Shown one piece after another: positions 2,175 to 57,632 of a stretch of DNA of 64,000 bases. The notes under the pieces are model-generated. The model was not told the origin of the DNA and did not search any database. It saw only the letters and a list, made by a program, of their open reading frames with translations. The number at the start of each line of letters is the position of its first letter. The stretch's first letter is position 1. The translations under genes were made by a program, and so were the position numbers. Source of the DNA: Heliocidaris erythrogramma (lineage: Eukaryota > Echinodermata > Echinoidea > Camarodonta > Echinometridae); the NCBI GenBank assembly GCA_025617745.1, contig CM046864.1, positions 24,097,152-24,161,151 of the forward strand, read 5' to 3'.

Positions 2175-2316
2175 CAGGGGAGTGTTTCATCACGTGTTTT
2201 GTCAGTGATATTTACCGACAAATTTGCTCTCAGCCAATCAGATGCAAGGATTTCAGTAGCTTATAACAGTTGTCGATAAAAATCACGGACAAAACACTTG
2301 AGGAAACGCTCCCCTG
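2175..2316. mobile_element. Family A palindromic MITE
   Basis: The element has inverted ends (CAGGGGAGTGTTTCATCA and TGAGGAAACGCTCCCCTG) and the shared core CTCAGCCAATCAGATGCAAG, followed by TTTCAGTAGCTTATAAC. The core lies in reverse orientation relative to copies such as the one at 57490. It is 66 bp upstream of the 64-nt exon, so it sits in the preceding intron. Confidence 0.75.
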
Positions 2317-2671: not shown

Positions 2672-3595
2672 AAAAGGGAAAGTCCACCCTGGGGGTGTTT
2701 CATAAAGCTGTTTGTAAAGTTACGCACAACTTTACGAATGACTTATATGTGACAAGCCAAATGGGATACTCAATTGTTTTTTAATCGTTTTTTAATGCAT
2801 CAACTAAAGTTGGACTGTGCAGATGTAGATTATAACATTCTTATTATAACAAACAATTTTAATGCAAAGTATATTTTTTGCCATTTGTAAATTGATGTTA
2901 CTGGAAATACAATCACACTTTGTTAAAACATGAGGAAAAACTTTGGGCATCCTATTTGGCACTTCATATTCAAGTCGTTCGTAAAGTCATGCGTAACTTT
3001 ACGAACAGCTTTATGAAACACCCCCCTGGTATTATTTGATTTTAATAAAAGAAAATGAGAGAAATGGAGTAGTGACAGTTTGAGCAAAATCAGATAAGAA
3101 ATAAGAAAGTTATGACTTTTTGAAGTTGTAAATTAATCAAACGCAAATTGGCAACTCCGTGATTTATCTTGCAAACTCCTCTCCCATTTGCTCAGTACAG
3201 AAAATCTCGTAAATTTTCATTTTTCTCAGTTTTTGATGAAGGAATAGATGTGTTTCATACAGGTTCTGCCTAAAAAACATATGGGCGATGATTATATCTG
3301 TTAAGGTGCATGTATGTTTGAATATTTTCTTTAGATAAAATGGAAATTAATGAGTTTGGGGTACCGAGCAAATGGAAGAGGAGCTTGCAAGATACATGTA
3401 CCTCACAGAGTTGCCAATTTGTGTTTGATTGATTACAACTTCAAAAATTCATAACTTTCTTATCCATTCAGAAAAATGTTTGAGGTACAACCTTTCTTAT
3501 CCATTGTCGTATTTTGCTCAAACCTCCGCTGATCTGTTTCTTTAAATTTGCTGACTTTTAAAATCAACTTGTAATCAGGTGGACTTTCCCTTTAA
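2672..3595. mobile_element. Large palindromic element (about 0.92 kb) with a nested insertion
   Basis: The terminal inverted repeats are AAAGGGAAAGTCCACC at about 2673-2688 and GGTGGACTTTCCCTTT at about 3579-3594. Inside the ends, the two halves match as inverted copies. For example, AATTGGCAACTCCGTGA near 3147 corresponds to the complement of the CAGAGTTGCCAATT stretch near 3406. The left arm is interrupted immediately after its terminal repeat by a separate element at 2689-3029. There is no ORF, which suggests a non-autonomous foldback or MITE-type element. Confidence 0.7.
2689..3029. mobile_element. MITE nested inside the 2672-3595 element
   Basis: The ends are CTGGGGGTGTTTCATAAAGC and GCTTTATGAAACACCCCCCTGG. 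The inverted match continues inwards with TTCGTAAAGTTACGC-type sequence on both sides. The terminal TTTCATAAA resembles the ends of families A and B, but the interior is unrelated to their core. It is about 340 bp and has no ORF. Confidence 0.7.
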
Positions 3596-3852: not shown

Positions 3853-3995
3853 CAGGGGGGCGTTTCATCAAAGGACTTGTCAGACATTTTATCCGACAAA
3901 TCTGCTCTCAGCCAATCAGATGCAAGGATTTCAGTAGCTTATAACAGTTGTCGGATAAAATATCTGAAAACTTCCTTTGATGAAACGCTCCCCAG
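3853..3995. mobile_element. Family A palindromic MITE
   Basis: The ends are CAGGGGGGCGTTTCATCAAA and TTTGATGAAACGCTCCCCAG, flanking the CTCAGCCAATCAGATGCAAG core in reverse orientation. The inner arms (TTTTATCCGACAA and TTGTCGGATAAAA) pair perfectly. This copy carries ATCC where most copies have TTACC. Confidence 0.75.
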
Positions 3996-5472: not shown

Positions 5473-5617
5473 CAGGGGGGCATTTCATCAAGTGTCTTGT
5501 CTGTGATTTCTACTGATAAATTTGCTCTCAGCCAATCAGATGCAAGGGTTTTAAACAGTAGCTTATAACAGTTATTGCAACTTGTCATTGATGACAAATT
5601 TTATGAAACAGGGCCCC
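5473..5617. mobile_element. Chimeric MITE: family A left arm, family B right arm
   Basis: The left end (CAGGGGGGCATTTCATCAAG, then TGTCTTGTCTGTGATTTCTACTGA) is family A. The core CTCAGCCAATCAGATGCAAG follows. The right end (GTTATTGCAACTTGTCATTG, then ATGACAAATTTTATGAAACAGGGCCCC) is family B. The arms are therefore not reverse complements beyond the shared terminal TTTCATNAA. The copy at 14000 has the same arrangement on the opposite strand. Confidence 0.75.
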
Positions 5618-6957
5618 GTATGGACAATGGTGTGGAATTCCTTGAAACTACTCTGCTCAGTATAATGAAATCAATTATCTCAGAATTATTATATGACAGA
5701 TGGAATAGAATCAATATTCTTATTGAAAATGGATGCAAACGAAACATGATAGATATTTTCTCCCAATTACTTTCAGGGATTCCCACCCACCCCCCCCCCC
5801 CCCCCCCCCAATATGACAAGACAAATCAGTAAACAATTAAAAAACTACATGCCGTCAAATGGGAGCCACAATTTACCCCAGACCTTTCTTAGGCGAGAGA
5901 CAATGTACATGGTTGCAATTCAAATGCACATGTGTTGATAATTGAACTCGGCGACAAATCAGCCCTACTGACTGGTGAGAACACACCCAAATGTCTTGCC
6001 CTCCAAATGACATTGTTACAATGTAGCATTATATGTAACTTGCCTTAATTGGTGTTGCCTGAAACCAGGTCCTGTAATGGAACGATAATATTTGAACCCT
6101 CTAAGAAATTACAGGCAACAACATTGGACATGCAGGTGTTCACTTGCTGCAAGGAGGTGAAAAATCGCCTAATAAATTTGACCTTCTTATAATGCAAAGT
6201 TTTGAAAACATGTTGCTGGGTTGAGCTTTTTATGAGAGTAACAACATGTACATGTATCTACATTACTTTTTTTGCAGTACTGTTGCAAACTAAAAGTCGT
6301 GTGTTGAGAGCCAGAAGGGCGTTAACTCTGTGTTAAAACATACGAGTTAACATCCTTCTGGCTCTCAACACACGATATGTCCTTTAGGCCATCCCAGATT
6401 ATTGCCTTGAATGTCTAATCACAAGTGTTAACTTGTTAAACTAAGTAATAAGTAGATCTAATTTCAGTGTTATAGTTAAGTGTATTCTGTCTTTTCTTTC
6501 ATTTCTCAATCACTTTGATTGTTCCTATTATTCTTATTTGTATTATTTGCTATCCTCCATTCTTTTCTGGACAACCCAACCCTCACTCTGCATGTCATGT
6601 CGTAATAATATTGTATGTAGTGATCTTCACTGGCATGGTTTCACCTTTGTGGGGGGGGGGGGGGGACTGTCAAGCATTGTCCTAGGGGGAGATTGTCCAT
6701 GGGATGACAGTCCAAGGTGCACTTTTCCTAGAATGACACATTTGTAATTTTTAATTTGTTTGAAACTTAGAAAGGGGCCAAATTTGGTCTGATGCATTTA
6801 GCTTGTTAGAAAAAGTACTACAGATCCAAACTTTAAAATGACTTTTCCAACTTCACCTCACCCATGCACCCTCTCCTCCATTAAAGATACATGTATGACC
6901 ATGTGTTCAGTTGTAACCAAGATTGAGATGGTGAGTTTTTATAAAGGAGATGATAAA

Positions 6958-6993
<36 letters not shown>

Positions 6994-8799
6994 TTGTTAA
7001 AAGGAGTACAAATAACGGTAGACTGGTAGTGATGAGAGCAGAATCATGTTTGAAGAAGAGGATATAAAGAAAAAGAGGATATAAAGAACAAGTGAGAGGC
7101 TAATTAACAATAGAACAACAAAATGAGCAAGTAAAATCGTATCCACTAAGCAAATTTGCAAACTCACAAAATGGCCATCCAACACTGTTCTCAGAATGCA
7201 TTTCACTTCAAGTAGCACTCGACACTTAAAAAGCATTGTTACCACCAGAAAAGTGGTTCTTAAGAACCCAAATTTTAGGACAAACAAGCAAACAAAGCTA
7301 ACTGATCCTCAGGGGGTAGGAAAAGATTTTGAGATTGATTGGGATATTGTTGGTCAATTCTCACCCCTAAGGGTGATATCCCGATTCTCTTTATGGAATC
7401 GTTGAGAAAATAGTTTCCTAGCTGGAAAAGGGGGGTTATTTGTTTGAGAGCTACATGTAGAGACCCCTACAGCCCATTATTAAACAGACTGGCTGTCCGG
7501 CTTTATGGCTTTGTCCAGCTCTCACAATAGGCCTTTTAACTGGGGCTAGACATGTGCTTTGAAAAGGATTATCTATAAGTGGCAAATGATGTCAAAAGTT
7601 TATACAAAGATGCACATCCATCAATTAACGGTGTAATTGAATGGGAGGGGAAGATGTGAGAAAATTGAATTACATATTTGTTGATAATTTAGAAGAAAAT
7701 ATAATAGTTTTGATGTCTATTGTATTATATATTTATTTGAATTCAGTTTTACCCATCAAGTTATATTACAGTAACATCTGCTGAAGTTCTTTGCAACTTA
7801 TATTTATCCTTTTACCTCCAGATATTTCCTTTCTATCAATACAAAATGATATAACTTCCAGTTGTTTTATTATGTCACAGATGACCAATTTGCCAGTTTT
7901 AGATTCACATAGGTTAAAGTGATCTGAACTGTCATATAAAGTACTTAAATAGCATTTTAATTATTCAACTATATTTGTCCAATTTCATTCAAGCTGTCCC
8001 AAACCTTTTTGTACTTCAACAAAATTAAACTTGTTACAAAGGGTGGTGGATAGCCCTGTAATTACTGTTCCTCTAACTGATGGAATAATAATAAGAAAAA
8101 AAATTCTGGCCAGGCTTTCTGTTCATACTTTCACACAGATTTGCGCAGACTGGTCTGTCTGAGTTTGCCTTTCCCCTGCAGTATAAATGGTTCTTTGTAG
8201 AAAGGCACAAGTAAAGCCAATCTTATCTGAAGTACTTGATGGATATGTCACTTTTCTCTGAGCGACTGTTCTATTTTGCTGGATGGCTGGAGTTTGAGAT
8301 TGTGTGAGTTTTGGACCAATTGCACCCACTCTGAAATGAATTAGTAAAGGCAGGTAGCGGCGCTGTGTGTACTTTTGGAATGTCACCCACTTCTTAAATG
8401 AAAGAGAGAAATAGACTTTGTTATTCGCAGGCTTTTAACCTGAAATCTGACAGGTGTTGGTGCGAAGGCAGTCACATGCCCATACTCTATGCAAATTTTG
8501 TCTATACATTTTACAATGACAATGACAATGATATTTTATTTCTTGAACGGCCCCTCATGGGGGCATGGAAGCAATACAATTATACATGTACAAGTACAAC
8601 ATCTGTATACCTAATTCAGCTTCTACACGACTCAGCAGGATCCATTAGTTGGGATAAAATGTTGAGAATTAAAGCGTGGTAGACAAGATGCTGAACAAAT
8701 AATGATTCAATTTAAGTATAGGAAGACAAGGTAGCTGTGTGACATTCTCAATTATATTTGGTTTCCTCATTTAAAAAAAGATTCTTCTTGCATAGGACC
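5618..8799. other. Intronic DNA with simple repeats and no exon seen
   Basis: Contains a 20-base poly(C) run at 5790-5809, a poly(G) run near 6651-6665, a GA repeat at 6961-6989 and the hairpin at 6299-6374. The other open frames are short and have no splice or codon signals that I trust. The sequence around 8505-8590 (repeated CAATGA units, then a TTTATTTC stretch) resembles a degraded retrotransposon tail, with low confidence. Confidence 0.35.
6299..6374. repeat. 31-bp inverted repeat hairpin
   Basis: The arms CGTGTGTTGAGAGCCAGAAG...GTTAACTC (6299-6329) and its near-perfect reverse complement (6344-6374) are separated by 14 bp. Related sequence occurs near 1890-1959 (GGAGCCAGATGGGCGTTAAA) and 37448-37505 (GAGTTAACGCCCTTCTGG). 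It is therefore likely a short dispersed palindromic element and not a unique regulatory hairpin. Confidence 0.7.
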
Positions 8800-9020
8800 T
8801 TGACAAGTCAGTACCACTCAAGATGCTCTAAAACTCCTATGCCATCAGCCAGGGCATCGATATGGGTCTTCGTAGCATTCAAGGAATTCCTTCCTATTTG
8901 TACTAGGTACCGTTTGCACCTGGGGTCGAGAGTTCAATGTATGTCTCGTCAAAGGACATTCTGTTCTGGGGCTCGAACCCACAACCCTCATACATTGTAT
9001 ATCCAGTTTTAGTGTTCACC
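8800..9020 (-). mobile_element. tRNA-derived SINE-like copy
   Basis: Read on the minus strand, a B-box-like sequence GGGTTCGAGCCCC (about 8967-8985) is followed by a body with CAAACGGTACC, then GGAATTCCTTGAATGC. The same body words appear in the copies at 49095 and 43340. The promoter A box is not clear. Established knowledge: tRNA-derived SINEs carry pol III A and B boxes in their heads. Boundaries are approximate. Confidence 0.5.
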
Positions 9021-9874
9021 CCAACTGAATACAGTAACTCTCAGTACTGCACGTTGCTAACAGGAGGAACACATCATTTGGTTTGGGTTACTTTGTGAAT
9101 TAACTTTTCACATTAATGCTCAAGATATTCAAATGGGTTTACATGTACTTTGTTATTCATTACTGTTCCTTTCTTTTTCTCTCTCTCTTTTGTTGTTATT
9201 TTGTTTTGTTTGTTTTTTATTAGAGCAGCATGAAAGTAGTGTTCTACAAAAATCTGCAGAGGTTTTTAAAATTCAAGTTCAGTTTTGGTGCTATAGCCAG
9301 CCAAAAAGAAAATATAATAATAATAAAGATCTGACTATAAGTGACAATAAGAACCCTTGACCGCAACTCTATGAAATAAGGTTTGTTGTTTGTGATAAAA
9401 GCCTCACAATCGCTGTGTTTCTTAGAGATCTAGATCTGGGGGATTATCTGAAATGTGATATGAGCAAAAATGAAAATTGTATAATAGGCCTATTCTTGCC
9501 CTTTTGAAATTTCAGCAAGTAACAGAGTAATGTCTGGAGGGTCTAAATTGTGGCCTGTTTTATGATTGATTTGAAGTTTTAAAAGCTTTTTCTTCTGAGT
9601 CAACACAATCTTATTTCCTATTAATTTGTATAGGAAGTGCAATTGTTTGGGAAAGTGTGAGGGAGACATTGCGGCTAAGAAGAAGTGCACTGAATTTTTC
9701 TCTTTTTTAATTGCTGAAATTTGTATCTGACAAAGTGTAAAGACCTGTGATAAATGAAACTTTTAATCTGAAATATTACTGGATATATTTATCTGTATTT
9801 GCAAACATTTTATAGCTTCTTTGTGTTTCGTTGAAACTAACCGTTTCTTTTTTTTATCTTTCTTCACCCCCCTC

Positions 9875-9915
<41 letters not shown>

Positions 9916-10214
9916 TATGCTGCTTTCTTTGTCTTTTTCCCCTTCTCTCTTCTTGTCCCTCGCTCTTCTATTATGTCTATTGCCTTTCTCTTTCGTCTTT
10001 CATTCCCTCTCTGTCGTTTTTTTTTTTGTTCTCTCTCTCTCTCTTCTGTCATTGTCTCATTTTCTTTCTGTATTTCTTTCTCTTTTCCGTCTTTCTCTTT
10101 CTCTCTTTATCTTATCTATTTCTGCTCTCTATTTCTCTCTCTCTCTCTCTCATTTCTCTGTCTTGGTCTCTGTCTCTGCCTCTCTTTGTTTTTTTCTTTC
10201 TTTCTCCCTCCCAG
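9875..10214 (+). repeat. CT-rich low-complexity tract leading into a splice acceptor
   Basis: A (CT)n run at about 9880-9912 grades into interrupted CT/TTC-rich sequence that ends in CTCCCTCCCAG at 10214. All three overlapping ORFs here (100-166 residues of Ser/Leu/Phe) are compositional artefacts, although the third runs into the real exon. Confidence 0.85.
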
Positions 10215-10331
10215 GTCCTGGATCTTCATCAGAGTCCCAACCTCTCCAGTCCAGAGGTGGAACTATCAACCATGAGCTTTGCTTCACCCTCGTCTAACCT
10301 CAACCTGAGTGGAATGAATTTAGACGACTGA
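10215..10331 (+). CDS. Terminal coding exon of an unidentified gene
   Basis: Following the acceptor at 10213-10214, the frame reads VLDLHQSPNLSSPEVELSTM and then 18 more residues ending SGMNLDD, with a TGA stop at 10329-10331. It begins on a codon boundary, matching the end of the 2383-2446 exon. The peptide is serine- and acid-rich, with no domain I recognise; a short acidic C-terminal tail such as this could be a disordered interaction or phosphorylation segment. Support is the splice signal, phase agreement, balanced amino-acid use compared with the flanking CT repeat, and the long unique AT-rich sequence that follows. An alternative is that the frame is a chance continuation of the CT-rich ORF. 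Confidence 0.6.
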   Translation, partial: VLDLHQSPNLSSPEVELSTMSFASPSSNLNLSGMNLDD

Positions 10332-11449
10332 GATTCAACTCAATTGAACAAGTACCTGAACCCTTTTGTCTCCATCATCTTCTTGCTCTCTTCTTCTCCT
10401 CCTTCTCCTTCTCCTTTTATCACCTCTCTCTCCTCTTCCCCTTCTCACAATCTAGAGGTGTAGTTGCCATTTGAGCTGTTCTTTGTCTTCTATCCTCAGT
10501 CTGAATAGAATTAATTTTAGTTTTAATGATTGACAAATCTCAGTTATTTTCTCTTCCTCATCTCCTCCCTTTCTCTCTTTCTCTCTCTCTCTTTCTCTCT
10601 CAATCTGTATTCCTCCCTTTTAAATTACTTGATAAAATTAATTAAACTAAAAACAACTAAATGTGGTCACAATCCCCTCTATTAATTTGGTCAAATTATT
10701 TGTAACATTATCTATTAAGGAGAAACATTACTTCGACCGCATTTGCATATGCTAATGAAGTGAGTTAATGAATGTATAATTCTGTACAGAAGACAGTTCA
10801 ATCAGGTAGAATATGTTCCTCAAAATAACTACATTATTAGAAAAAACATATCTACAAAGAGTTATACTCATCTTTTAAAGACGGCAAAAGTATTACAAAT
10901 AGTATTAGTCAGATGCAGCAGCTTTCACTTTTATGCGAAAGCATACTTTTCAAAATATTTTATTTGCTTTTTGTAGAATATGCTGATTACAGTGCAATGA
11001 CTTTGTATTTTTTTAATATAAAAGTCTAACCCATGTGCAAATATTTGAACAATTTTATTACATGTACCAATTTGCGTGACTTGTATTAGTCAAAACTGTA
11101 GATGAAGTTATTTTCACTTTTTTCAAGATATATGCTCTTCGAATTTGGTAAAAAGAACATTTGTGTTTGATCTTACTGTATGTTTATAATGCAGATATAA
11201 TATTTGTATTTTTAATGCAATATACTACATTGTTCTTTATAGTTTATAAACAGTTTAACATGTCACATTTGGGAAGGTAAATCATTATTTCATTGCATGA
11301 GAATGATATAAAATTTGTTAGGAGCTTATAAATAGGCTTAAAAATAATTGTCGCTTTTCAATCTGGATGTTATAGGGCCATTGCACAAATAATCTGTAAG
11401 TTAAGAATTAATTTTTTGTATAAGTTTAATATATGAACAAGATTAAATG

Positions 11450-11455
11450 AATAAA
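11450..11455 (+). terminator. Candidate polyadenylation signal AATAAA
   Basis: A canonical AATAAA about 1.1 kb after the TGA at 10331. A second occurs at 12453-12458. Which one is used cannot be told from sequence. Confidence 0.35.
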
Positions 11456-11610
11456 TAGAAATATCCATGTGTGCACTGTAGAATATAAATGAAAGGATGT
11501 TTCTATATAATTCTTTATAAACCTTTATCACTGACAGAATGACAAATGTTTAAAAAACAGCTGTGGTTTTTGCAAGTTTGGACAATATAAAAGTATTCCA
11601 TATGTAAACT

Positions 11611-11782
11611 AGCTGCAAGCTTGCCGCACGCTTACTATTTTTGTGCAAGCTTGCGGCAAGCTTGCCACTCTTCCTGCAAGCTTGCGTAACACTTGCGGTA
11701 TTAGCTTGCCATCATTTTCTAAGCAGCTTGCCGCAAGCTTATTTTATCTAAAAACACGCTTGTCAAGCGTGCCGCAAGCTTA
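11611..11782. repeat. Cluster of GCAAGCTTGC-type palindromic words
   Basis: Within 172 bp, the words GCAAGCTTGCCGCA, GCAAGCTTGCGGCAAGCTTG, GCAAGCTTGCG, GCTTGCCGCAAGCTT and GCCGCAAGCTT recur at irregular spacing on both strands. The cluster is GC-rich inside very AT-rich DNA. It is not a regular tandem repeat. Confidence 0.7.
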
Positions 11783-12599
11783 AATTTGTATAGGGGGTAT
11801 ACAGTAGTACTCTTCAACCACGTGTATGCTAAACTCATATTTAAAAAATATCAAAATATATCAAACTGATTCGGAATATGAATTTCAGATAAACTATGAT
11901 TATGATATATGCAGTGTAGGATTGATAATATGTTTGAATATATTTTCATATTGAATTTTGAACTGGAATTATATCAACAGTAATTTGTGTGCTGTCAGTT
12001 TTGTTAGATTAAGTAAATTAAAACTTTTCTTTTGTGATATAATCTTATATCATTTAGATCAGACAGGGAAAATAGTACTTGTAACAACGTTTTCATTTTA
12101 TGTGCCTTCAAATTTGCCAAAATATGGACATATAGATGAGAAACTTCTATTATGCTAAATGATCTACTGAATTTAAATCAAACGGAAATTTTAAACATAA
12201 CATTTTTATTGTGTGCCTGCAGTGTCTTCAGATTTTTTCCAAAGTAAAAACACATTCAACAAGACACTTCCTAATAATTACTAGTATGCTATATGATCTT
12301 AAATGTTTAGATCAGACAGAGGAATTTTAAGTAACATTCGTTCTAGTATTTCACATATCACGCAATGCCCAGTAGTTCATTGAAATGTAATATTATAGAT
12401 ATTAAACAACAATGTATACTTTTTTTGGAAATTTCTAGCCATTTTCACTAAAAATAAAAAAAGGATACTAATATTCAATCATTGTGTCATTTTACGTCAT
12501 TTTGGGAACTTATACTTTCTTCGTATTTCTCTGTTTTTGTTTGTCCGTTTTGTTTTGTTCTGTTTCTTGTATATTTGTAGGTGAATGATAGGAGTTAAA

Positions 12600-13550
12600 T
12601 TTCAATGGACCTACGTACCTTTGCTCCTAAGTCATACTGGTCTTATACGTACTACTGATCAAATTTTAAAAAAAAATCTAACCCTAGTCCGTTGTGAATG
12701 TTTTGATATCTCGTTCTTTTATCTATCATTTATTCGATTTTTAATTTTTGTTTTATTATTATTATTTTTTTTTATACGGAGCTACGATAGTCGTGTTTCT
12801 TCGTTCCGTTCTCCCTTTCTTTCTATATTCGCTCTTTCTTCTTTAATTTTCTTCTTTAGGAATGTTCGAAAAATATATTTGGACGGGGCTAGCCTCGACC
12901 GTGACCCCTATCTCATCTCGTTTCTCTACCTCTCCCCGTTAAGCTCGTAAATCGCTCAAGTTTTCCACAGCTTCGTATGAAATCCAAATATCCCCATTGT
13001 TTTGTTTCCAAACACGAGGGGCCAAAAATCCCACGCAGAAAGTGGAAAGGATCCGAAGAGAAAATGGGGTCCCCTTCTTCAACTTTAAAGGCCTTTTTTT
13101 TTCTTCTTTTAAAGTGGACATGCTGGTGCAGGAGGAAATGTCTTCATCGTTATTAGGACGCGACGGTTGTAGTAACTACACGTAGAAAGAAACTCGAACG
13201 GAAATGGACTGTAAAAAGATGGCGGTTGCATATGTATATTTCTAAACTTCTAAATACCGTGATGGGGTTAATTTGAATTTACATAATTTTTAAAAGCAGT
13301 TTTACTAAAGGTACTTTGATATTTCAATGATACAGTCTTCCCTCACTCCCAAAGGTGAGTGGCGTATCGTTCGTGGGTCCGGTAGTGGTGGGAGGAAGGG
13401 GGGGGGGGGGGGGCAGGAGCAATGGGTAGGAGGGGCAATATCACGTAATCCATGACTCCATAGTGGTGGGGAAGGGGAACGGGGGGGGGGCAGGAGCAAT
13501 GGTAGGAGGGACAATATCACGTAATCCATGACCAATTGGTTACTTGTCTT
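12600..13550. other. Unassigned sequence with poly(G) runs
   Basis: No recognisable gene. Weak ORFs occur on both strands. G runs at about 13399-13412 and 13481-13488 belong to two copies of a roughly 85-bp direct repeat (CAGGAGCAATGG...CACGTAATCCATGAC) at about 13413-13455 and 13489-13532. Confidence 0.35.
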
Positions 13551-13555
13551 TTTTC

Positions 13556-13945
13556 CGAAAGTTCGTTTTCCAGAGGTTCATTGCTGCGACGATTCGTAAT
13601 TCTATAAAAGGTTCATTATTCCAAAAAAGAAATAGGTTTCGTAATTCCTGAAATGAAATAAAAGTTCGTAAAAAGTTATGTAGAACTCTATTGCATTTTC
13701 GGAATTACGAACCTTCGGAAATACGAACCCATTTTCTTTTTCGGAATCGCGAACCCTATTTTATTTCCAAATAAATATGAACCTTATTCTATTTTTTAAA
13801 TAATTGTGAACCTTATTTCATGTTCGGAATTATGAATATTCGGAGTAATGCATGAAGTGTTGGGTATTATGAACCCCATTTCATTTTCGGAAATTATGAA
13901 CCCTCTGTTATGGGAAATTTGTGTTTCGGAATTATGAACCTTGGG
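13556..13945 (+). repeat. Degenerate tandem repeat of TTCGGAATTATGAACC units
   Basis: At least eight imperfect units of about 25-30 bp carry the consensus CATTTTCGGAATTATGAACC. The first part is in inverted orientation (GGTTCATTATTCC, GTTTCGTAATTCC) and the rest is direct, so the array folds back on itself. Confidence 0.75.
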
Positions 13946-13999
13946 GACCCCTGCGATCAATTGATTCATACTTGATTACCATTATGATGATGATAATCT

Positions 14000-14131
14000 G
14001 GGCCCTGTTTCATAAAACCTGTCATCAAGTTACAATAACTGTTATAAGCTACTGAAATCCTTGCATCTGATTGGCTGAGAGCAGAATTTGTCGGTAGAAA
14101 TCACCGACAAGACACTTGATGAAACGCCCCC
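14000..14131. mobile_element. Chimeric MITE: family B left arm, family A right arm
   Basis: The left end GGGCCCTGTTTCATAAAACC with CATCAAGTTACAATAACTG is family B. The core is GCATCTGATTGGCTGAGAGC. The right end (TCGGTAGAAATCACCGACAA, then GACACTTGATGAAACGCCCC) is family A. Reverse-complemented, it has the same order as the element at 5473: the GAGAGC side of the core carries arm A and the TTATAAGC side carries arm B. Confidence 0.75.
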
Positions 14132-20175: not shown

Positions 20176-20524
20176 TTATTCTTCAACTTGGACTGGTTGA
20201 TGCCAGGAGCTCTCAAACCTTGTTTCTGGAAAGATATATCTTTCGTTAGCGATTTTGCAGAGCGCTGGCCCTGTCAAGTTTGGATTAAACATCATTTCTA
20301 TGTTTGCTGCTTTACCCAGGTAATATAGTATATAGCTGACGATAATTAACTAAACATCACATTGTTTTTGTGTTTGTTTATCAAACTGCGTTCGCAAGTG
20401 TTCAAATAAGGGCAGTTGAAATTGAGAACTGTTGTCAGATCAACTTCATCACAGACATTGCTCGACAAAGATTTTCTTTATACCTCGCGCTTGGATGATT
20501 TTGATAGAAACAGTAGCATAAATC

Positions 20525-20878
20525 ATGGGATTTTCGACATTTCTAGCTGTGCTGGTCGTGGCCGGAGTTCTACTCACCAGTGCCCCCGAAACTTGGGCGG
20601 CGAGGCGCGATCGACAGCAGCGTGAGCAGCAGCGCTGTCAGCGGATCAAGACGCCGCAATGCAAGGACGTGGGACTACCTTACGAACGGACAGTCTTCCC
20701 GAACATCTTCGGGCAAGACAGCCAGAAATCGGCCAAATCAAGCTTGAAGAAATGGGAACAAGTTATCGAGACTGGGTGCTCAGCCTACATTCGACCCCTT
20801 CTCTGTGCTGCTTTCGTCCCGGCCTGCCCCCGTAAGAGCTCGCAAGCACTGCCTCCATGTCGCGAGCTCTGCTTGAAG
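20525..20878 (+). CDS. First coding exon of a secreted or membrane protein with a Frizzled-type CRD
   Basis: The ATG at 20525 opens 118 codons up to a consensus donor (GAAG/GTAAGA at 20879). Residues 1-25 form a signal peptide: MGFS, a hydrophobic stretch LAVLVVAGVLL, and a likely cleavage after ETWA. From residue 38 the pattern matches a Frizzled cysteine-rich domain: RCQRI, PQCKDVG, a TVFPNIFG block, ETGCSAYIRPLLCAAFVPAC and PPCRELC. Seven of the ten expected cysteines are present, so the last three should lie in the next exon. Established knowledge: this domain binds Wnt ligands in Frizzled receptors and secreted Frizzled-related proteins, and it also occurs in Ror, MFRP, corin and carboxypeptidase Z. 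Which family this is cannot be settled from one exon. No second exon was recognised downstream. The ORF continues past the donor to a stop at 20942, which looks like read-through into the intron. Confidence 0.85.
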
Positions 20879-21467
20879 GTAAGACGAAACATTTTTTCCT
20901 ATATTTTGTGTCGAAAACAATTGACCTCGGAGCAACAGGCTTGATGCTAAGAGCGTGCTCTAAATAAAGAATATTGTTCGAAAATTATTGATGACAACTT
21001 CTCGATGTATGATAGCTTGCTGCGTATATTTTGTAAGGTAGTACTAGACCAAAAGATCAATAGTTTGGTCCCGGAGTTTGGTCAAGGAATATGACTGTAA
21101 ACATGGGAGAAAATAGGTAATCATCACCATGAGCCAAATGGTGTAGCACTCTATGTAAAACGGTAATCTTCTGGTAAACTGTTCTCTATTCTAGTGTACA
21201 TGAGCCACAATTATGTTATGCATTTGTGAACATAATTTATTCACTGCACGATTTCACGAATGTTATTTTAAGGCCGCTATTCAGCACACCCGTGTGCGCG
21301 ACTTTCTTTTCTTATTTTCCCTACTATTTTCATACAATTATACTAATCTTAATTATACAAGGTGTACAAAAAAACTTTACGATGTTTTCGATCGTTGATA
21401 GGTCAATAGTAACAACCAAGGAGTTATCGCTTATAACTCCTTCTTACTGGTTACATCTAAGATCGAC
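20879..21467 (+). other. Start of the first intron of the CRD gene
   Basis: Begins GTAAGA. AT-rich with no further exon seen. The intron may extend far to the right, since no CRD continuation (the remaining cysteines) was recognised. Confidence 0.45.
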
Positions 21468-21597
21468 CTGGGGAGCGTTTCATCAAGCGTTTTGTCAGTG
21501 ATTTTTACCGACAACTGTTATAATCTACTGAAATCCTTGCATCTGATTGGCTGAGAGCAAATTTGTCAGTAAAAACACTTGATGAAACGCTCCCCAG
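21468..21597. mobile_element. Family A palindromic MITE
   Basis: The ends CTGGGGAGCGTTTCATCAAG and CTTGATGAAACGCTCCCCAG are perfect reverse complements over 20 bp. The core is GCATCTGATTGGCTGAGAGC. The right inner arm has a deletion of about 12 bp (CAGTAAAAACACTTG), which makes it shorter than other copies. It is probably in the first intron of the CRD gene. Confidence 0.85.
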
Positions 21598-25069: not shown

Positions 25070-25220
25070 GGGCCCCGTTTCCTCAAACTTGTTATCAATA
25101 TAAAAAAGTTACAATAATTGTTATAAGCTACTGAAATTCTTGAATCTGATTGGCTGAGAGCAGATTTGTCATAGAAATGGGACTGTTGTTATTGATAACA
25201 AGTTTCGTGAAACAGGGCCC
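25070..25220. mobile_element. Family B palindromic MITE
   Basis: The ends are GGGCCCCGTTTCCTCAAAC and GTTTCGTGAAACAGGGCCC. The inner arms are ACTTGTTATCAAT and ATTGATAACAAGT-like. The core is GAATCTGATTGGCTGAGAGC. It directly abuts a family A copy on its right. Confidence 0.8.
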
Positions 25221-25361
25221 AGGGGAGCGTTTCATCAAGCGTTTTGTCAGTGATTTCTACCGACAACTGTCACAAGCTAGTGAAATCCTTGCATCTGATT
25301 GGTTGAGAGCAAATTTGTCAGTAAAAATCGCTGACAAAACGCTTGATGAAACGCTCCCCAG
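25220..25361. mobile_element. Family A palindromic MITE, abutting a family B copy
   Basis: The ends are CAGGGGAGCGTTTCATCAAG and CTTGATGAAACGCTCCCCAG, with the core GCATCTGATTGGTTGAGAGC. Its first base overlaps or touches the terminal GGGCCC of the preceding family B copy, so the two share the target site or their terminal bases. Confidence 0.8.
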
Positions 25362-25477: not shown

Positions 25478-25800
25478 AGTGTTAAACTTTACCAGAGTTC
25501 CGGGTTGACCGGCAGCCAACATTTTTACCCCGCTGCCTGGGGAGCGTTTCATGAAGTGTCTTGTCAGTGATTTTTACTGACAAATTTGCTCTCAGCCAAT
25601 CAGATGCAAGGATTTCAGTAGCTTATAACAGTTGACGGTAAAAATCACTGAAAAAACGCGTGATGAAACGCTCCCTGGTTATTTCATAAGCATCTGCTCT
25701 ATAATCAAATGACGAAATCCCTGCTGAACTAATGCGATTATACACGAAAAAGAAAAATTACATGGCAACATTTTTTAACCTGGTTTTTCTGTGTGTTGAA
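25478..25800 (+). repeat. Repeat unit of about 320 bp carrying a family A MITE, copy 1
   Basis: The sequence on both sides of the MITE (GTTAAACTTTACCAGAGTT on the left; TGAACTAATGCGATTATACA and TTTTTCTGTGTGT on the right) is repeated around the MITE at 52139. The MITE was therefore copied together with its flanks. Boundaries are approximate. Confidence 0.7.
25537..25678. mobile_element. Family A palindromic MITE inside a larger repeat
   Basis: The ends are CTGGGGAGCGTTTCATGAAG and CGTGATGAAACGCTCCCTGG, with the core CTCAGCCAATCAGATGCAAG in reverse orientation. Its flanks recur at 52065-52395. Confidence 0.8.
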
Positions 25801-25931: not shown

Positions 25932-26066
25932 GGGCCCCGTTTCATAAAACTTGTAATTATCAATAGCAAGTTACGATAGTTACTGAAATCCTTGCATCTG
26001 ATTGGCTGAGAGAAAATTTGTCATGTGGCAGTTGTTACTGATAACAAGTCTTATGAAACGGGACCC
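25932..26066. mobile_element. Family B palindromic MITE
   Basis: The ends are GGGCCCCGTTTCATAAAACT and TCTTATGAAACGGGACCC, with the core GCATCTGATTGGCTGAGAGA. The core's TTATAAGC part is deleted (GTTACTGAAATCC). Confidence 0.8.
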
Positions 26067-28921: not shown

Positions 28922-29067
28922 GGGCCCCGTTTCATAAAACTTCTTATCAATAACTAGTTATAATAATTGTTATAAGCTACTGAAATCCTGAATCTGATTG
29001 GCTGAGAGCGAATTTTTCATAGAAATAGGCAGTGGTTATTGATAACAAGCTTTATGCAACAGGACCC
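28922..29067. mobile_element. Family B palindromic MITE
   Basis: The ends are GGGCCCCGTTTCATAAAACT and GCTTTATGCAACAGGACCC. The inner arms are CTTATCAATAACTAG and TTATTGATAACAAG. The core is GAATCTGATTGGCTGAGAGC. Confidence 0.8.
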
Positions 29068-31425: not shown

Positions 31426-32837
31426 ACTGAAAATAAACAATCAGATGCAAAAAATTAAGAACGCGTAAAGTAGAGAGAGAGAGAGAGAGAGAGAGCGATT
31501 ACGGCTTATTAAAAAAACTCAGCCCAAACACGAAAGCCAAATTGTTGAAGTTTCAAGGCAGGCAGAGCTTAATAAAAACTCAAACGTACAAAATAGATTT
31601 AATGTTAACAAAATTATTGGATATGTACATGTATCACAGTGTGAAAATAGATAACGGTTTTTATCCCTATTCTGACGTAGTAATATCCAAATCAACCCCC
31701 CCCCCCGTTTTTTTAAAAGAATGTATACGTCTGTCAACAGTTATTTCTTCATTTCCGAACTTACGTTATCTGACAAAAATAGTGAAATTTGAGTATTTCG
31801 TAAAGAAAACGTGCAGCTTGAAGTGAAGCGTGCAAGAGAGAGAGAAATTGAAATATCATATACCTTTAGACTATTTCAAATATTAGGCTTTATTCCCAGG
31901 AACCATGGTTACACAACTTGGTTTCATTTAGTTAACGTGTAGTAACTGCACTTGGCTGTTTTCAGTACAGAAAATTACATTTGCGTGAACGAAACAAAAT
32001 TAGTTAATGTCATAATGTGATGTTTGACGGAGAGGGTGTTGAAAGTTGCAATTGGAGTCACTCTTACTTTGTATGGCTGGCTCTAGGTTTTCCAAATTAC
32101 TCTGTTTTCTATCTCGCTTTCTTTGCTTTTCCATGCCTCTCATTGTCACCCCTACATCTGTACATGTTCTACGTGTTCATAATTTCCCTTCTCTCTCTCT
32201 CTCTCTTTATCTCTCTCTACCATTTCTCTCCTAGACACTCCCCGCTCTTTCCATCCTCTCTCTCTTTCTATCCTTTCTCTTCTAGACTCTCCCCGCTCTT
32301 TCCACACCTCTCTCTCTCTCTCTTTACACCCCCCCCCCCATTTTTCCCTCCCCCCCCCCCCATCCCCTCGGTCTGGGAGCCACATCTCTGGTCATTCATT
32401 TTCATTGGAGTTTTCTTATTTACTATGATATACATGTATGTTTACCTTCCTTCCTAGATCCGACCCCCCCCCCTCTCTCTCTCTCTCTCTTGGCCTCTAT
32501 ACTCTTTTCTCTTCTCTTTTCCTCCATCTTCCTCACAACACATGGTATTATTTTATTTATTTGTCCTGAGTTGTCAATGAAAGACATTGGTTAGGGTTGG
32601 AGAGATACTTATCTTTCAAATACTCCCAAGTCACCTTGAACATGACCATGAAATAAACTTTGTTAAACTGAACGAAATTCTCTCCCACACTCGAATTCGA
32701 ACAAAGTCGTAACAAGTTTTCACTTTAAAGCATGCTTGGCCAGGAACTCTGCTAACCCTATATGACTACTGTATTATCTTGTTCCCATAGGCTCAATACA
32801 GAAACATCCGACTATCTTTCCCATCCAACCAATAAAC

Positions 32838-34110
32838 CTCCTACAGTCGAACTCAAACAATGTCCTAGCAATATTTAACTTCAAAATATGCTTGAGTAGC
32901 AACTCTGTTAATCTTTCTATAATAATATTAATGTCTATCTTCCCCATCCAACCAATACCCTCCTACAGTCGAACTCAAACAATGTCCTAGCAATATTTAA
33001 CTTCAAAATATGCTTGATTAGCAACTCTGTTAATCTTTCTATAATAATATTAATGTCTATCTTCCCCATCAAACCAATAAACCTCCTACAGTCGAACTCA
33101 AACAATGTCCTAGCAATATTTAACTTCAAAATATGCTTGATTAGCAACTCTGTTAATCTTTCTGTAATAATATTAATGTCTATCTTCCCCATCCAACCAA
33201 TAAACCTCCTACAGTCGAACTCAAACAATGTCCTAGCAATATTTCACTTCAAAATATGCTTGATTAGCAACTCAGTTAATCTTTCTATGATAATATTAAT
33301 GTCTATCTTCCCCATCCAACCAATAAACCTCCTACAGTCGAACTCAAACAATGTCCTAGCAATATTTCACTTCAAAATATGATTGATTAGTAGCTCTGTT
33401 AATCTTACTATGATAATATTAATGTCTATCTTCCCCATCCAACCAATACCCTCCTACAGTCGAACTCAAACAATGTCCTAGCAATATTTAACTTCAAAAT
33501 ATGCTTGATTAGCAACTCTGTTAATCTTTCTATAATAATATTAATGTCTATCTTCCCCATCCAACCAATAAACCTCCTACAGTCGAACTCAAACAATGTC
33601 CTAGCAATATTTCACTTCAAAATATGCTTGATTAGCAACTCTGTTAATCTTTCTATAATAATATTAATGTCTATCTTCCCCATCCAACCAATAAACCTCC
33701 TACAGTCGAACTCAAACAATGTCCTAGCAATATTTCACTTCAAAATATGCTTGATTAGCAACTCTGTTAATCTTTCTGTAATAATATTAATGTCTATCTT
33801 CCCCATCCAACCAATAAACCTCCTACAGTCGAACTCAAACAATGTCCTAGCAATATTTCACTTCAAAATATGATTGATTAGTAGCTCTGTTAATCTTACT
33901 ATGATAATATTAATGTCTATCTTTCTCATCCAGCCAATACCCTCCTACAGTCGAACTCAAACAATGTCGTCACAATATTTCACTTCGAAATATGGTTGAT
34001 TAGTAGCTCTGTTATCTTTCCCATCCAACCAATACTCTCCTATACTCGAATGCAAACAAACTCGTAAAAATATTTCACTTCAAAATATGCTTGCTTAGCA
34101 ACACTGTTGA
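32838..34110. repeat. Satellite array, 123-bp unit with a four-unit higher-order repeat
   Basis: The word CTCCTACAGTCGAACTCAAA recurs at 32838, 32960, 33083, 33206, 33329, 33451, 33574, 33697, 33820 and 33942. Spacing is 123 bp, or 122 bp where AATAAACC is replaced by AATACCC. The short variant recurs every 491 bp (32960, 33451, 33942), as does the variant GATTGATTAGTAGC (about 33380 and 33871). This defines a four-unit higher-order repeat. The last units (33942-34110) are diverged. Because 123 is divisible by three, both strands stay open, so the 97-122 codon ORFs here are artefacts. Confidence 0.9.
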
Positions 34111-40866: not shown

Positions 40867-41190
40867 TAAAAAATACCTTTGTTTCGCCATCACTTCAAAC
40901 AGTGGTGGAGAGTGGATATAGCCATCAAGGGGCATTGGTGTCATTAGTGAGGGGGGGGGGGGGGGGAGCTACAAGGCGGGTTGATAGTAAGGGAAAAGGG
41001 CCATACCAGACCTGAAGAGATGAAAGGGGTATCATCATCTTCGCCTACCATCTCATTCTCTCTCTCTCTCTCTCTTATTCCATTTTGAAAGTTTGTTTTG
41101 GTAATTCGATTGGGGGCACGGACCTGTACCCCCTTTAATAGCAGCTACGCAACTTCCTTTCCTTCCAACAATCATCCTTGAATGTTGACG

Positions 41191-42104
41191 TGAGTGATCA
41201 TGTTAGCGGAAGGTAATGTGGTTTAGGAAACATCGCAGATAATTATTCCATCAGAAATATGATCCTACATAAACGAACGTAAAGGCAGAACATGAGAGAC
41301 GACACCCACATGACAACTCTTCGGAAATTCTTGTATTGCCCCTTCTCATCATGCATTTATGGTATTCTTATTGGCTTCTTTTTGAAACAAAACGAGCACA
41401 AACACAACCGCAAACAACATCTCCATTCCCAAACGCAGGGGCCTGAAAGAAGGTACTGTGATCAGGTGACCATGGCTCATTAATTCAGAACCATGTGAGA
41501 TAAAAGCGTACTGAAAGATCATGAGCGGGAGGGGAGGAGGGAATGAACGAGAGAGAGAGAGAAATTCAGGCAGAAATTCAGACGAAGACATTCCCAAATA
41601 TACAGAGAGATGTTCAAATAGAAAATGGCCAGAGACACTAAGAGTGAGAGAGAAAGGAAAATAGAGAGAGAGAGGGGGGGGGGGGGGGGGGCGGGAAGAG
41701 TGTAGAAAGAGAAGGGGTACCGCAAGGAGATACGGTCTGCACGGTAACAGTGGTGACACTGACTCCAGTTTACTGCCTCTAATTTTTCTTCAAGTGTTTT
41801 TTGGTGAGTGATCATGTTAGCAGAAGGTAATGTGGTTTAGGAAACATCGCAGATAATTATTCCATCAGAAATATGATCCTACATAAACGAACGTAAAGGC
41901 AGAACATGAGAGACGACACCCACATGACAACTCTTCGGAAATTCTTGTATTGCCCCTTCTCATCATGCATTTATGGTATTCTTATTGGCTTCTTTTTGAA
42001 ACAAAACGAGCACAAACACAACCGCAAACAACATCTCCATTCCCAAACGCAGGGGCCTGAAAGAAGGTACTGTGATCAGGTGATCATGGCTCATTAATTC
42101 AGAA
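41191..42104 (+). repeat. A-B-A segmental duplication (614-bp period)
   Basis: Segment A at 41191-41490 (TGAGTGATCATGTTAGCGGA to TCATTAATTCAGAA) is followed by segment B at 41491-41804, then A again at 41805-42104, almost identical. An identical small ORF of 63 codons appears in both A copies with one residue changed. I treat it as non-coding because it shows no domain. Confidence 0.85.
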
Positions 42105-46725: not shown

Positions 46726-46872
46726 GGGCCCCGTTACATAAAACATGTTATCAATGACAAGTTACAATAACTGTTATAAGCTATTGAAATCGTAGCATTT
46801 GATTGGCTGTCAGAACATTTGTCGTAGAATTGTGACACTTGTTATCAATAATAGTTTTATGAAACGGGGTCC
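46726..46872. mobile_element. Family B palindromic MITE
   Basis: The ends are GGGCCCCGTTACATAAAACA and TTTTATGAAACGGGGTCC. The inner arms are TGTTATCAATGACAAG and ACTTGTTATCAATAATAG. The core is GCATTTGATTGGCTGTCAGA, the most diverged core in the window. Confidence 0.75.
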
Positions 46873-49290: not shown

Positions 49291-49897
49291 ATTTCTCTGA
49301 AATTTTGGATGCATCTCGAAATTTCTCAGCTCCTTCCGAATCTTTATTTTTGACAAGATGACAGGCCCCCAAAATATGTTAAGAGGTTGAGACACATTCG
49401 AAACTTTGTCACAATTCGTTCTGATCGTAAACTTGCCTGCTTCGAAACATCATTGTCAGGACATTACCCTAATACACTCTAAGAAATGACGACTAAATCC
49501 TGGATACATCTATCCACATTTTGTTTCAAAGTTATCGTAATTGGCAACAAGTATTTGCATTTTAACTGAGCACAGAACTGTCGACAAGTTGGTCGCATAT
49601 ACAAAAGCGCCAGCGTTGGGCATTTGTTGTAACCTGGGCGATATGGGACATAGAAACATTATTAATTTTCTCCATGATCACAGTGCACATATGGTAGAGT
49701 GAAACAGTAGTCAAACTTCATAGTAAAAGATTTCAAGATTTTACATGTTATGGATAGATTAAACGATGAAGTAAAAACGAGAGACAATTCACGGAATCAT
49801 GATCCAAGTATATTTTTGAGAGTTTATCGATAGCCGATATCCTATGGGTATACCGTCAAAATATGAAAAAGTATTTTTTTATGTTCGTCAGTCTTCA

Positions 49898-50562
49898 GGG
49901 CCGTTTCATAAAATGTGTTACCAATAACAACTGCCTCCTTTCTCTGACAATTCACTCTCAGCCAATCAGATGCAAGGATTTCAGTAGCTTATAACAACTA
50001 TTGTAACTTGTTATTAGCTACGTTCATACGGGACTTGTGGTTTCGAAACTTTAAGTTAGTGAAACTTTGAGTTAACGAAACCACGACTCCCTAACCGCAA
50101 CGAGGGTTCACACGAGCCTGAAACAACGAGCTGAAACTACAAGCCGAGCGAGCTTTGTGGTTAACCCCGGAAGTAAATACTACCGATTGTGTGTATAGTA
50201 CACATATACAGATCCTGTGTTCATGATTCGCGCGAAGGGTATGACCTGGAAATTCAACATGAACAGCGAGGTGATCCTTAACCACAAGCTTGCGAAACTT
50301 AAAGTTTATTCCGTTCACGTGGGCCGTAACTTCGAGGGAGGCTCCACGCTGCTCGTGGTTTCGGCCTTAACTACGAGCTCGCTTGTGGTTCTAGAACTAC
50401 AAGTAAACTTAAAGTTTCGAAACCACGAGTCCGTTCATACGGGCTGAAACTACAATATAACTACAAGTTAACTTAAAGTTTTGAAACTACAAGCGAAACT
50501 TAAAGTTTAGCTCCCATCGTGTGAACGTAACTAATGATAACAAGTTTTATGAAACCGGGCCC
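49898..50562. mobile_element. Family B MITE interrupted by another palindromic element
   Basis: The left part (GGGCCGTTTCATAAAATGTG, core CTCAGCCAATCAGATGCAAG, CTTGTTAT) and the right part (ATGATAACAAGTTTTATGAAAC, GGGCCC) rejoin to a normal family B copy. They are separated by about 500 bp at 50016-50533. Confidence 0.8.
50016..50533. mobile_element. Palindromic element nested in a family B MITE
   Basis: The ends GCTACGTTCATACGGGAC and ATCGTGTGAACGTAAC are inverted, with TA on both sides as a possible target duplication. The interior repeats CGAAACTTTAAGTT, AAACTTAAAGTTT and GAAACCACGAG on both strands, so it can fold along much of its length. The overlapping 75-76 codon ORFs on opposite strands are artefacts of this symmetry. 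Confidence 0.75.
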
Positions 50563-52064: not shown

Positions 52065-52395
52065 AAAAAGGGTTAAACTTTACCAGAGTTATGGGTTGAC
52101 CGGTAGCCAACACAAATCTGGTAATTTTTACACCGTTACCTGGGGAGCGTTTCATCAAGTGTCTTGACAGTGAGTTTTACTGACAAGTTTGCTCTCAGCC
52201 AATCAGATGCAAGGATTTCAGGAGCTTATAACAGTTGTCGGTAAAATCACTGAAAAAACGCTTTATGAAACGCTCCCCTGGTTATTTCATACGCATCTTC
52301 TCTAATCAAATGACGAAATTCCTGTTGAACTAATGCGATTATACATGGAAAATAGTTTACACAGAAAATTTTTAACCAGGCGTTTTCTGTGTGTA
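52065..52395 (+). repeat. Repeat unit of about 320 bp carrying a family A MITE, copy 2
   Basis: Matches 25478-25800 on both sides of the MITE (GTTAAACTTTACCAGAGTT; CTGGTTATTTCATACGCATC; TGAACTAATGCGATTATACA). A 17-bp-scale insertion (AATCTGGTAATTTTTAC) distinguishes the left flank. Confidence 0.75.
52139..52281. mobile_element. Family A palindromic MITE inside a larger repeat
   Basis: The ends are CCTGGGGAGCGTTTCATCAA and TTTATGAAACGCTCCCCTGG, with the core CTCAGCCAATCAGATGCAAG in reverse orientation. Confidence 0.85.
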
Positions 52396-57489: not shown

Positions 57490-57632
57490 CAGGGGAGCGT
57501 TTCATCAAGCGTTTTGTCAGTGATTTTTTACGGACAACTGTTATAAGCTACTGAAATCCTTCCATCTGATTGGCTGAGAGCAAATTTGTCAGTAAAAATC
57601 ACTGACAAAACGCTTGATGAAACGCTCCCCAG
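57490..57632. mobile_element. Family A palindromic MITE
   Basis: The ends CAGGGGAGCGTTTCATCAAG and CTTGATGAAACGCTCCCCAG continue into CGTTTTGTCAGTGATTTTT and its complement, giving arms of about 48 bp. The core is CATCTGATTGGCTGAGAGCA. This is one of the best-preserved copies. Confidence 0.85.

Follow-up and report, generated by a model that had tools for sequence, protein, structure and literature searches.

Two chimeric MITE copies in the Heliocidaris erythrogramma genome probably belong to one mobile subfamily with unlike ends

The two ends of a transposon are usually described as matching each other. Here we describe a miniature inverted-repeat transposable element (MITE) whose two ends come from two different families, which we call A and B. 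Two copies lie in a stretch of 64,000 nt of Heliocidaris erythrogramma (CM046864.1:24,097,152-24,161,151, hereafter the window), part of a 1.06-Gb assembly of 26 contigs. We conclude that the two copies probably represent one mobile, non-autonomous subfamily of about 136 bp, whose founder would have arisen by recombination within a core common to both families and which a NuwaI-type transposase would have moved.

Two hybrid copies in the window

The hybrid copies occupy positions 5476..5615 on the reverse strand (copy 1) and 14001..14131 on the forward strand (copy 2). When both are oriented by the core, the sequence and BLAST give the same order, namely a B arm (GGCCCTGTTTCATAAA...), the core (AACTGTTATAAGCTACTG...CTGATTGGCTGAGAGC...) and an A arm of the A1 form (...TTGATGAAACGCCCCC), the last with one change in copy 1. 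This confirms the first-pass annotation of the window, which had described one A arm and one B arm around a common core in each copy. It was also correct in placing the B arm on the TTATAAGC side and the A arm on the GAGAGC side in both, although the copies lie on opposite strands. The locations it gave (5473-5617 and 14000-14131) hold, but the edges are off by a few bases once the 3-bp CWG is removed. Copy 1 differs from the hybrid consensus by 5.1%, and copy 2 by 2.3% with six gap columns. Copy 1 is flanked by CTG at its A end and by no CWG at its B end, while copy 2 has CTG on the left, at its B end, and a C/T run on the right, at its A end.

To compare the arms across families, we built consensuses from 36 A1-A1, 10 A2-A2, 22 B-B and 96 hybrid elements. 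The left arm of the hybrid consensus matches B at 40/44 positions and A1 at 25/44; the right arm is closer to A1 (39/44) than to B (28/55). For the two forms of A, the left arms of A1 and A2 match at 34/45. The 55-bp core is identical (55/55) in the hybrid, A1-A1 and A2-A2 consensuses, and the B-B core differs at two positions. Both of these positions carry the A-like state in at least two of the 22 sampled B-B copies, so the break point may sit anywhere in the core.

These alignments speak against both copies being ordinary A or B elements with local decay, an outcome that the first-pass annotation had allowed for. The B-like and A1-like arms lie on opposite sides, and all 96 sampled hybrids belong to the B-left, A1-right class; most were chosen by exact tips, so their inner arms are the independent part of this evidence. 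We found nothing in favor of local decay and consider its probability negligible.

Hybrid copies across the genome

We next counted the element types genome-wide with patterns that required both 16-base tips to be exact, so that decayed copies were missed and the counts are lower bounds. There were 4591 A-A, 636 B-B and 370 mixed matches. Adding part of the core fixed the orientation and gave 442 matches for the hybrid that carries B on the TTATAAGC side and 4 for the reciprocal arrangement. Reversed patterns served as a control and gave zero matches for every one of these counts, so the hybrid counts exceed chance.

The 96 hybrids comprise the two window copies and 94 others, taken from the first places listed for the mixed pattern (mostly contigs C1-C5) and from the best BLAST matches; loci with the same 12-base flanks were dropped. 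The A-A and B-B samples came from C1, with three B-B from C2. We fetched 20 B-B and 40 A-A places, which yielded 19 and 40 counted elements, and one further A-A came with locus L011. The hybrids diverge on average by 3.9% from a single 136-bp consensus, to which two of the first 56 are identical. CWG lies on both sides of 56 of the 96, and its middle base agrees in 37 of these 56.

The first-pass annotation had left two options, a mobile chimeric subfamily or repeated recombination, and had proposed a genome search for full-length chimeras with target-site duplications. The orientation bias, low divergence, CWG flanks and middle-base agreement found here favor the mobile subfamily. From the copy number, the single consensus and the CWG flanks, we infer that the hybrid moved as a unit. 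Repeated recombination stands only as a rare side event, visible in a few other hybrids, and not as the general origin. Its strongest form, in which every one of the hundreds of hybrids arose by its own in-place exchange of A and B at the core, is consistent with the identity of the 55-bp core in the A and hybrid consensuses. Such exchange should yield both products, against the observed 442 to 4, and the hybrids share a single consensus whose arms differ from those of both parents at shared positions. We therefore regard independent exchange as very improbable for the whole set, mainly on account of the orientation bias.

The few other hybrids suggest that recombination also recurred. Read by eye, the four reciprocal copies (L159-L162) have flanks of CTG/CTG in one and CTG/CAG in one, while two lack a right CWG. 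Three of them have a common right-arm form from which the fourth differs, and on this reading the reciprocals likely represent at least two lineages. One A2-left, A1-right hybrid with CAG/CAG flanks (L120) was found among the 40 A-A places. Arm exchange around a constant core may be general among these elements.

Unlike ends and the putative transposase

The A-A and B-B parents have the inverted repeats of a MITE, with arms that match end to end at 43/44 positions in A1-A1, 41/45 in A2-A2 and 39/54 in B-B. The hybrid shares with MITEs its short consensus and high copy number, and lacks matched terminal inverted repeats, as its own two ends match at 23/44. According to the first-pass annotation, the unlike ends would be alike only in TTTCATNAA. 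The likeness goes further: the tips have 11 of 16 positions in common (counted by eye), and in the hybrid consensus each arm contains an inner palindrome, TTGTC...GACAA. The hybrid is matched at its tips only and works like a MITE with unlike arms.

The parents and the hybrid also differ in predicted DNA folding. The A1-A1 and B-B consensuses form long hairpins (-50.2 kcal/mol, z -13.6, and -35.3 kcal/mol, z -9.3, respectively), the hybrid far less so (-19.4 kcal/mol, z -3.3). Since the hybrid spread despite its weak fold, a full-length hairpin is not required for spread. Paired changes in the A-arm palindrome after insertion were considered and rejected: among 56 hybrids, no clear pairing is seen at the variable positions (97, 98, 110 and 111), all of which fall within CpGs of the consensus.

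The elements probably belong with the NuwaI type of the PIF/Harbinger, ISL2EU and Spy (PHIS) superfamily, judging from their CWG duplications and GG...GTTTCAT tips. Their ends start with GGGRGCG and GGCCCYG, in line with the G-rich GGG/GG starts of NuwaI, and CWG is the duplication described for NuwaI in parts of PMC4482050. A NuwaI-type transposase, a DDE nuclease with a Myb/SANT partner, would move the hybrid by cut and paste. Such machinery could mobilize the hybrid because each end carries what appears to be an accepted tip and an inner palindrome.

Among 581 candidates for the DDE_Tnp_4 domain, 150 matches were scored, including sets with equal scores and open frames. At one of them (L170), CAG followed by GGCATCGTTTCATCAA lies about 650 bp upstream of a 373-codon frame with DDE_Tnp_4; this tip is related, but is neither A nor B. 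Weaker tip matches stand beside other transposases (L166, L172 and L177).

It is plausible that one transposase accepts both ends of the hybrid. Alternatively, the hybrid would need two cooperating transposases, one per end. The low match between its own arms is consistent with this, and mixed pairs of Ping and Pong proteins can be active according to a part of PMC2836001. The similar tips and the palindrome common to both arms argue against it; moreover, A-A, B-B and hybrid elements are all found at CWG, so a single enzyme is simpler. We consider a need for two enzymes less likely than not.

Target sites and middle-base disagreement

In scoring target sites, we accepted a left CWG shifted by a few bases and allowed a C/T run for the right CWG. 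CWG was found on both sides in 35/36 A1-A1, 5/10 A2-A2 and 14/22 B-B elements, next to the 56/96 hybrids, in line with the CWG duplication of NuwaI. Around the duplication, the flanks of 56 hybrids show the preference AYCWGRT. Many of the hybrid failures are C runs at the A end, and left ends lack CWG in 12/96. The C run at the A end of sampled hybrids often extends into a long poly-C tract.

Unexpectedly, where CWG is present on both sides, its middle base disagrees in 19/56 hybrids, 11/35 A1-A1, 6/14 B-B and 2/5 A2-A2 elements. The rates are alike among types (heterogeneity p 0.88). Overall, 38/110 disagree and 72/110 agree; the 95% interval for disagreement, 26-44%, lies below 50% (p 0.0015). 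Agreement also exceeds 50% in the hybrids taken separately (p 0.022). In-place exchange predicts about half to disagree, and the disagreement in hybrids could be counted in its favor. Both the similar rates in A1-A1 and B-B and the excess of agreement in hybrids argue against it.

Mutation or slow exchange was rejected as the source of the disagreement: divergence is equal in the 37 agreeing (0.0360) and 19 disagreeing (0.0353) hybrids (p 0.96). Mutation alone should also give far fewer disagreements, a few per cent by our estimate, given that the left CWG fails in 12/96. Experiments on mPing are interpreted by their authors as evidence of cleavage that leaves 3-nt 5' overhangs derived from the duplication (parts of PMC4561436). 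An element that left with such an overhang and was joined into a new gap would produce a mismatch at W whenever donor and target differ, and 25-50% disagreement would be expected. This carry-over is our own suggestion and does not appear in the mPing passages of PMC4561436. If confirmed, the middle-base disagreement would offer evidence at the population level on the cutting and rejoining of PIF/Harbinger elements.

Age order of the parents and the hybrid

Measured against the A-type core, core divergence is 0.059 in B-B (59 of 1004), 0.038 in hybrid, 0.025 in A2 and 0.015 in A1 elements. B-B cores diverge by 0.052 from their own consensus, and three window B-B copies differ from the A-type core at 14 of 158 positions. 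These divergences suggest that the hybrid predates the A burst. However, more CpG sites are included in the exact-tip pattern for A-A than in those for the hybrid or B-B, which favors young A-A copies; five window A1 copies that were not picked by pattern also gave 0.015 (4 of 265). The two window hybrids gave 0.019 (2 of 106), which points in the opposite direction from an older hybrid in a small sample.

Origin of the founder

The founder would have arisen when an A-armed element recombined with a B-armed one within the common core, and would then have amplified. One possible route starts with a tandem insertion at a shared CWG. A deletion between the direct cores would then leave the B-left arm, one core and the A-right arm, with usable ends. 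Junctions of a B end, CWG and an A end have 29 exact matches in the genome, against a rough expectation of about 0.6 (CWG) or 2.5 (YCWGR). This expectation uses the exact-tip counts and the window composition, and segmental duplications were kept, of which two pairs are seemingly visible on contigs C13 and C14. The 29 junctions include hybrid-hybrid tandems (for example L045). The window itself holds a direct tandem of the predicted precursor kind at 25071-25358. In it, a B-B element (25071..25219, forward strand) adjoins an A-A element of the A1 form (25223..25358, forward strand) in direct orientation across one shared CAG. The A-A element has CAG on both sides, as read by eye, and the pair is possibly of the kind from which the hybrid formed.

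Several observations weigh against one mobile subfamily with such a founder. Strict direct B-A tandems number only two genome-wide, the window pair and one on C8, both absent from the 29 junctions. Tandems in the opposite direct order (A-right followed by B-left) were matched 17 times, and 11 of these belong to the 29. If composed of A-A and B-B elements, they would yield the reciprocal product; hybrid-hybrid and A-hybrid tandems also fit this order, and many may be hybrid-hybrid. In addition, CWG is missing from at least one side in 40 of the 96 hybrids, and about a third of the rest (19/56) show a middle-base disagreement. The hybrid core is more divergent than the A1 core (0.038 versus 0.015), so the present A-A burst is not an obvious parent. 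For the L170 element, no far end was found. Finally, the flanks inspected to either side of the DDE match, each about 1.5-2 kb or longer, revealed no autonomous element carrying A or B tips at 8 loci, in 5 more stretches or in 4 others (5 matches); ends may lie farther out.

The tandem route thus has living examples of its substrate, but the counts do not favor it; the core may equally well have been the site of a crossover or template switch. A founder from template switching in gap repair, or from crossover between distant copies at the core, is a serious contender to which we give slightly less than even weight. The scarcity of strict precursor tandems and their absence from the exact junctions are in its favor, and gap-repair copying from an ectopic template is discussed for MITE birth in section 10 of PMC1562414. 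Against it, gap repair would often leave unmatched flanks, and there are more B/A junctions at a shared CWG than roughly expected.

A broader scenario extends the single-subfamily reading. In it, a MITE lineage would have changed its ends via hybrids, with an unchanged 55-bp core and arms passing from B to A by means of the B-A hybrid, so that the core could follow one transposase after another. Carry-over of the 3-nt CWG overhang from the old site to the new would explain the disagreements. We consider this combination rather doubtful.

Related elements and other features of the window

The core motif CTGATTGGCTGAGAGC has 14 matches in the window at up to three mismatches, against 0.25 expected. 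BLAST with the two hybrids also gave 14 element copies in the window, a different list from the 14 motif matches. Besides the hybrids themselves, seven copies have two A ends and five are of B type, one of them interrupted. The element finder caught 11 of these 14. The copies starting at 25223, 46727 and 49897 were missed and hence stand outside the flank, consensus and divergence counts.

Apart from the tandem partner, the A-A copies on the reverse strand lie at 2178..2313 (flanks CAG/CTG), 3856..3992 (A2 type, CTG/CTG), 25540..25675 and 52143..52277 (CAG/CAG). Those on the forward strand lie at 21471..21594 (right arm shortened, CTG/CAG) and 57493..57629 (CAG/CAG). The remaining B-B copies on the forward strand are at 25933..26065, 28923..29066 and 46727..46871 (CAG/CAG by eye). 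On the reverse strand, one arm of the B-B copy at 49897..50562 is interrupted by about 520 bp of inserted sequence, which resembles another inverted-repeat element.

An element of about 330 bp at 2691-3025 has an GTTTCATAAA tip and CTG flanks, and no common core was seen in it. Elsewhere in the window, an open frame at 20522-20944 has a signal-like start and an Fz domain (Pfam E 8.9e-20) and is perhaps an exon of a secreted frizzled-type gene. A tandem array at 32812-34093 repeats about every 123 bp and has long stretches open in one frame. The segments 41190-41489 and 41804-42103 are 99% identical and 614 bp apart, beside more local duplications from 39662 on.

Comparison with known systems

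The hundreds of hybrid copies suggest that two unlike ends can work as a pair, and MITE families may switch transposase by exchanging arms around a fixed core. Because parents, hybrid and rare reciprocal coexist in a single genome, the case can be tested directly. Harbinger3_DR of zebrafish also has a CWG-type palindromic target.

Hybrid-ended MITEs are already a known kind. In the parts of PMC1562414 that describe AgaP2-P12MITE of Anopheles gambiae, its two ends relate to two different transposon subfamilies, and its authors suggest a new route of emergence, possibly involving two transposases. The hybrid described here likewise has each end from a different family and appears to be mobile as a unit. 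AgaP2-P12MITE differs in belonging to the P elements, in its 8-bp duplications and in a middle suggested to be genomic DNA between two copies, whereas the core of our hybrid is common with the two MITE families that supply its arms.

The NuwaI group of the PHIS superfamily (parts of PMC4482050) shares the 3-bp CWG duplication, the G-rich end starts and occurrence in animals. Its families are described there with DDE and Myb/SANT proteins and inverted repeats of 12-61 bp, while the hybrid lacks matched inner arms. Like our elements, mPing with Ping and Pong is a PIF/Harbinger MITE, of the Tourist type, with a 3-bp duplication and a freer middle base, and it uses the proteins of two related elements (passages of PMC2836001 and PMC4561436). 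In contrast, its duplication is of the TWA type and not CWG, and those passages describe no hybrid ends; Harbinger3_DR is named in PMC2836001. The chimeric MITEs at inversion breakpoints in Atlantic cod (parts of PMC12368964) are also two-part copies made by ectopic recombination. They differ as in-place exchanges between related copies and are not described there as a mobile subfamily. Besides these cod MITEs and the Anopheles case, the literature on hybrid or chimeric MITEs that we searched yielded a study of mosaic non-autonomous transposons in bacteria (PMC4133298). Within the open-access literature searched, the new features here are the core that the hybrid has in common with its two parent families, a burst of this size and one-sidedness, and the disagreement at the middle base of CWG.

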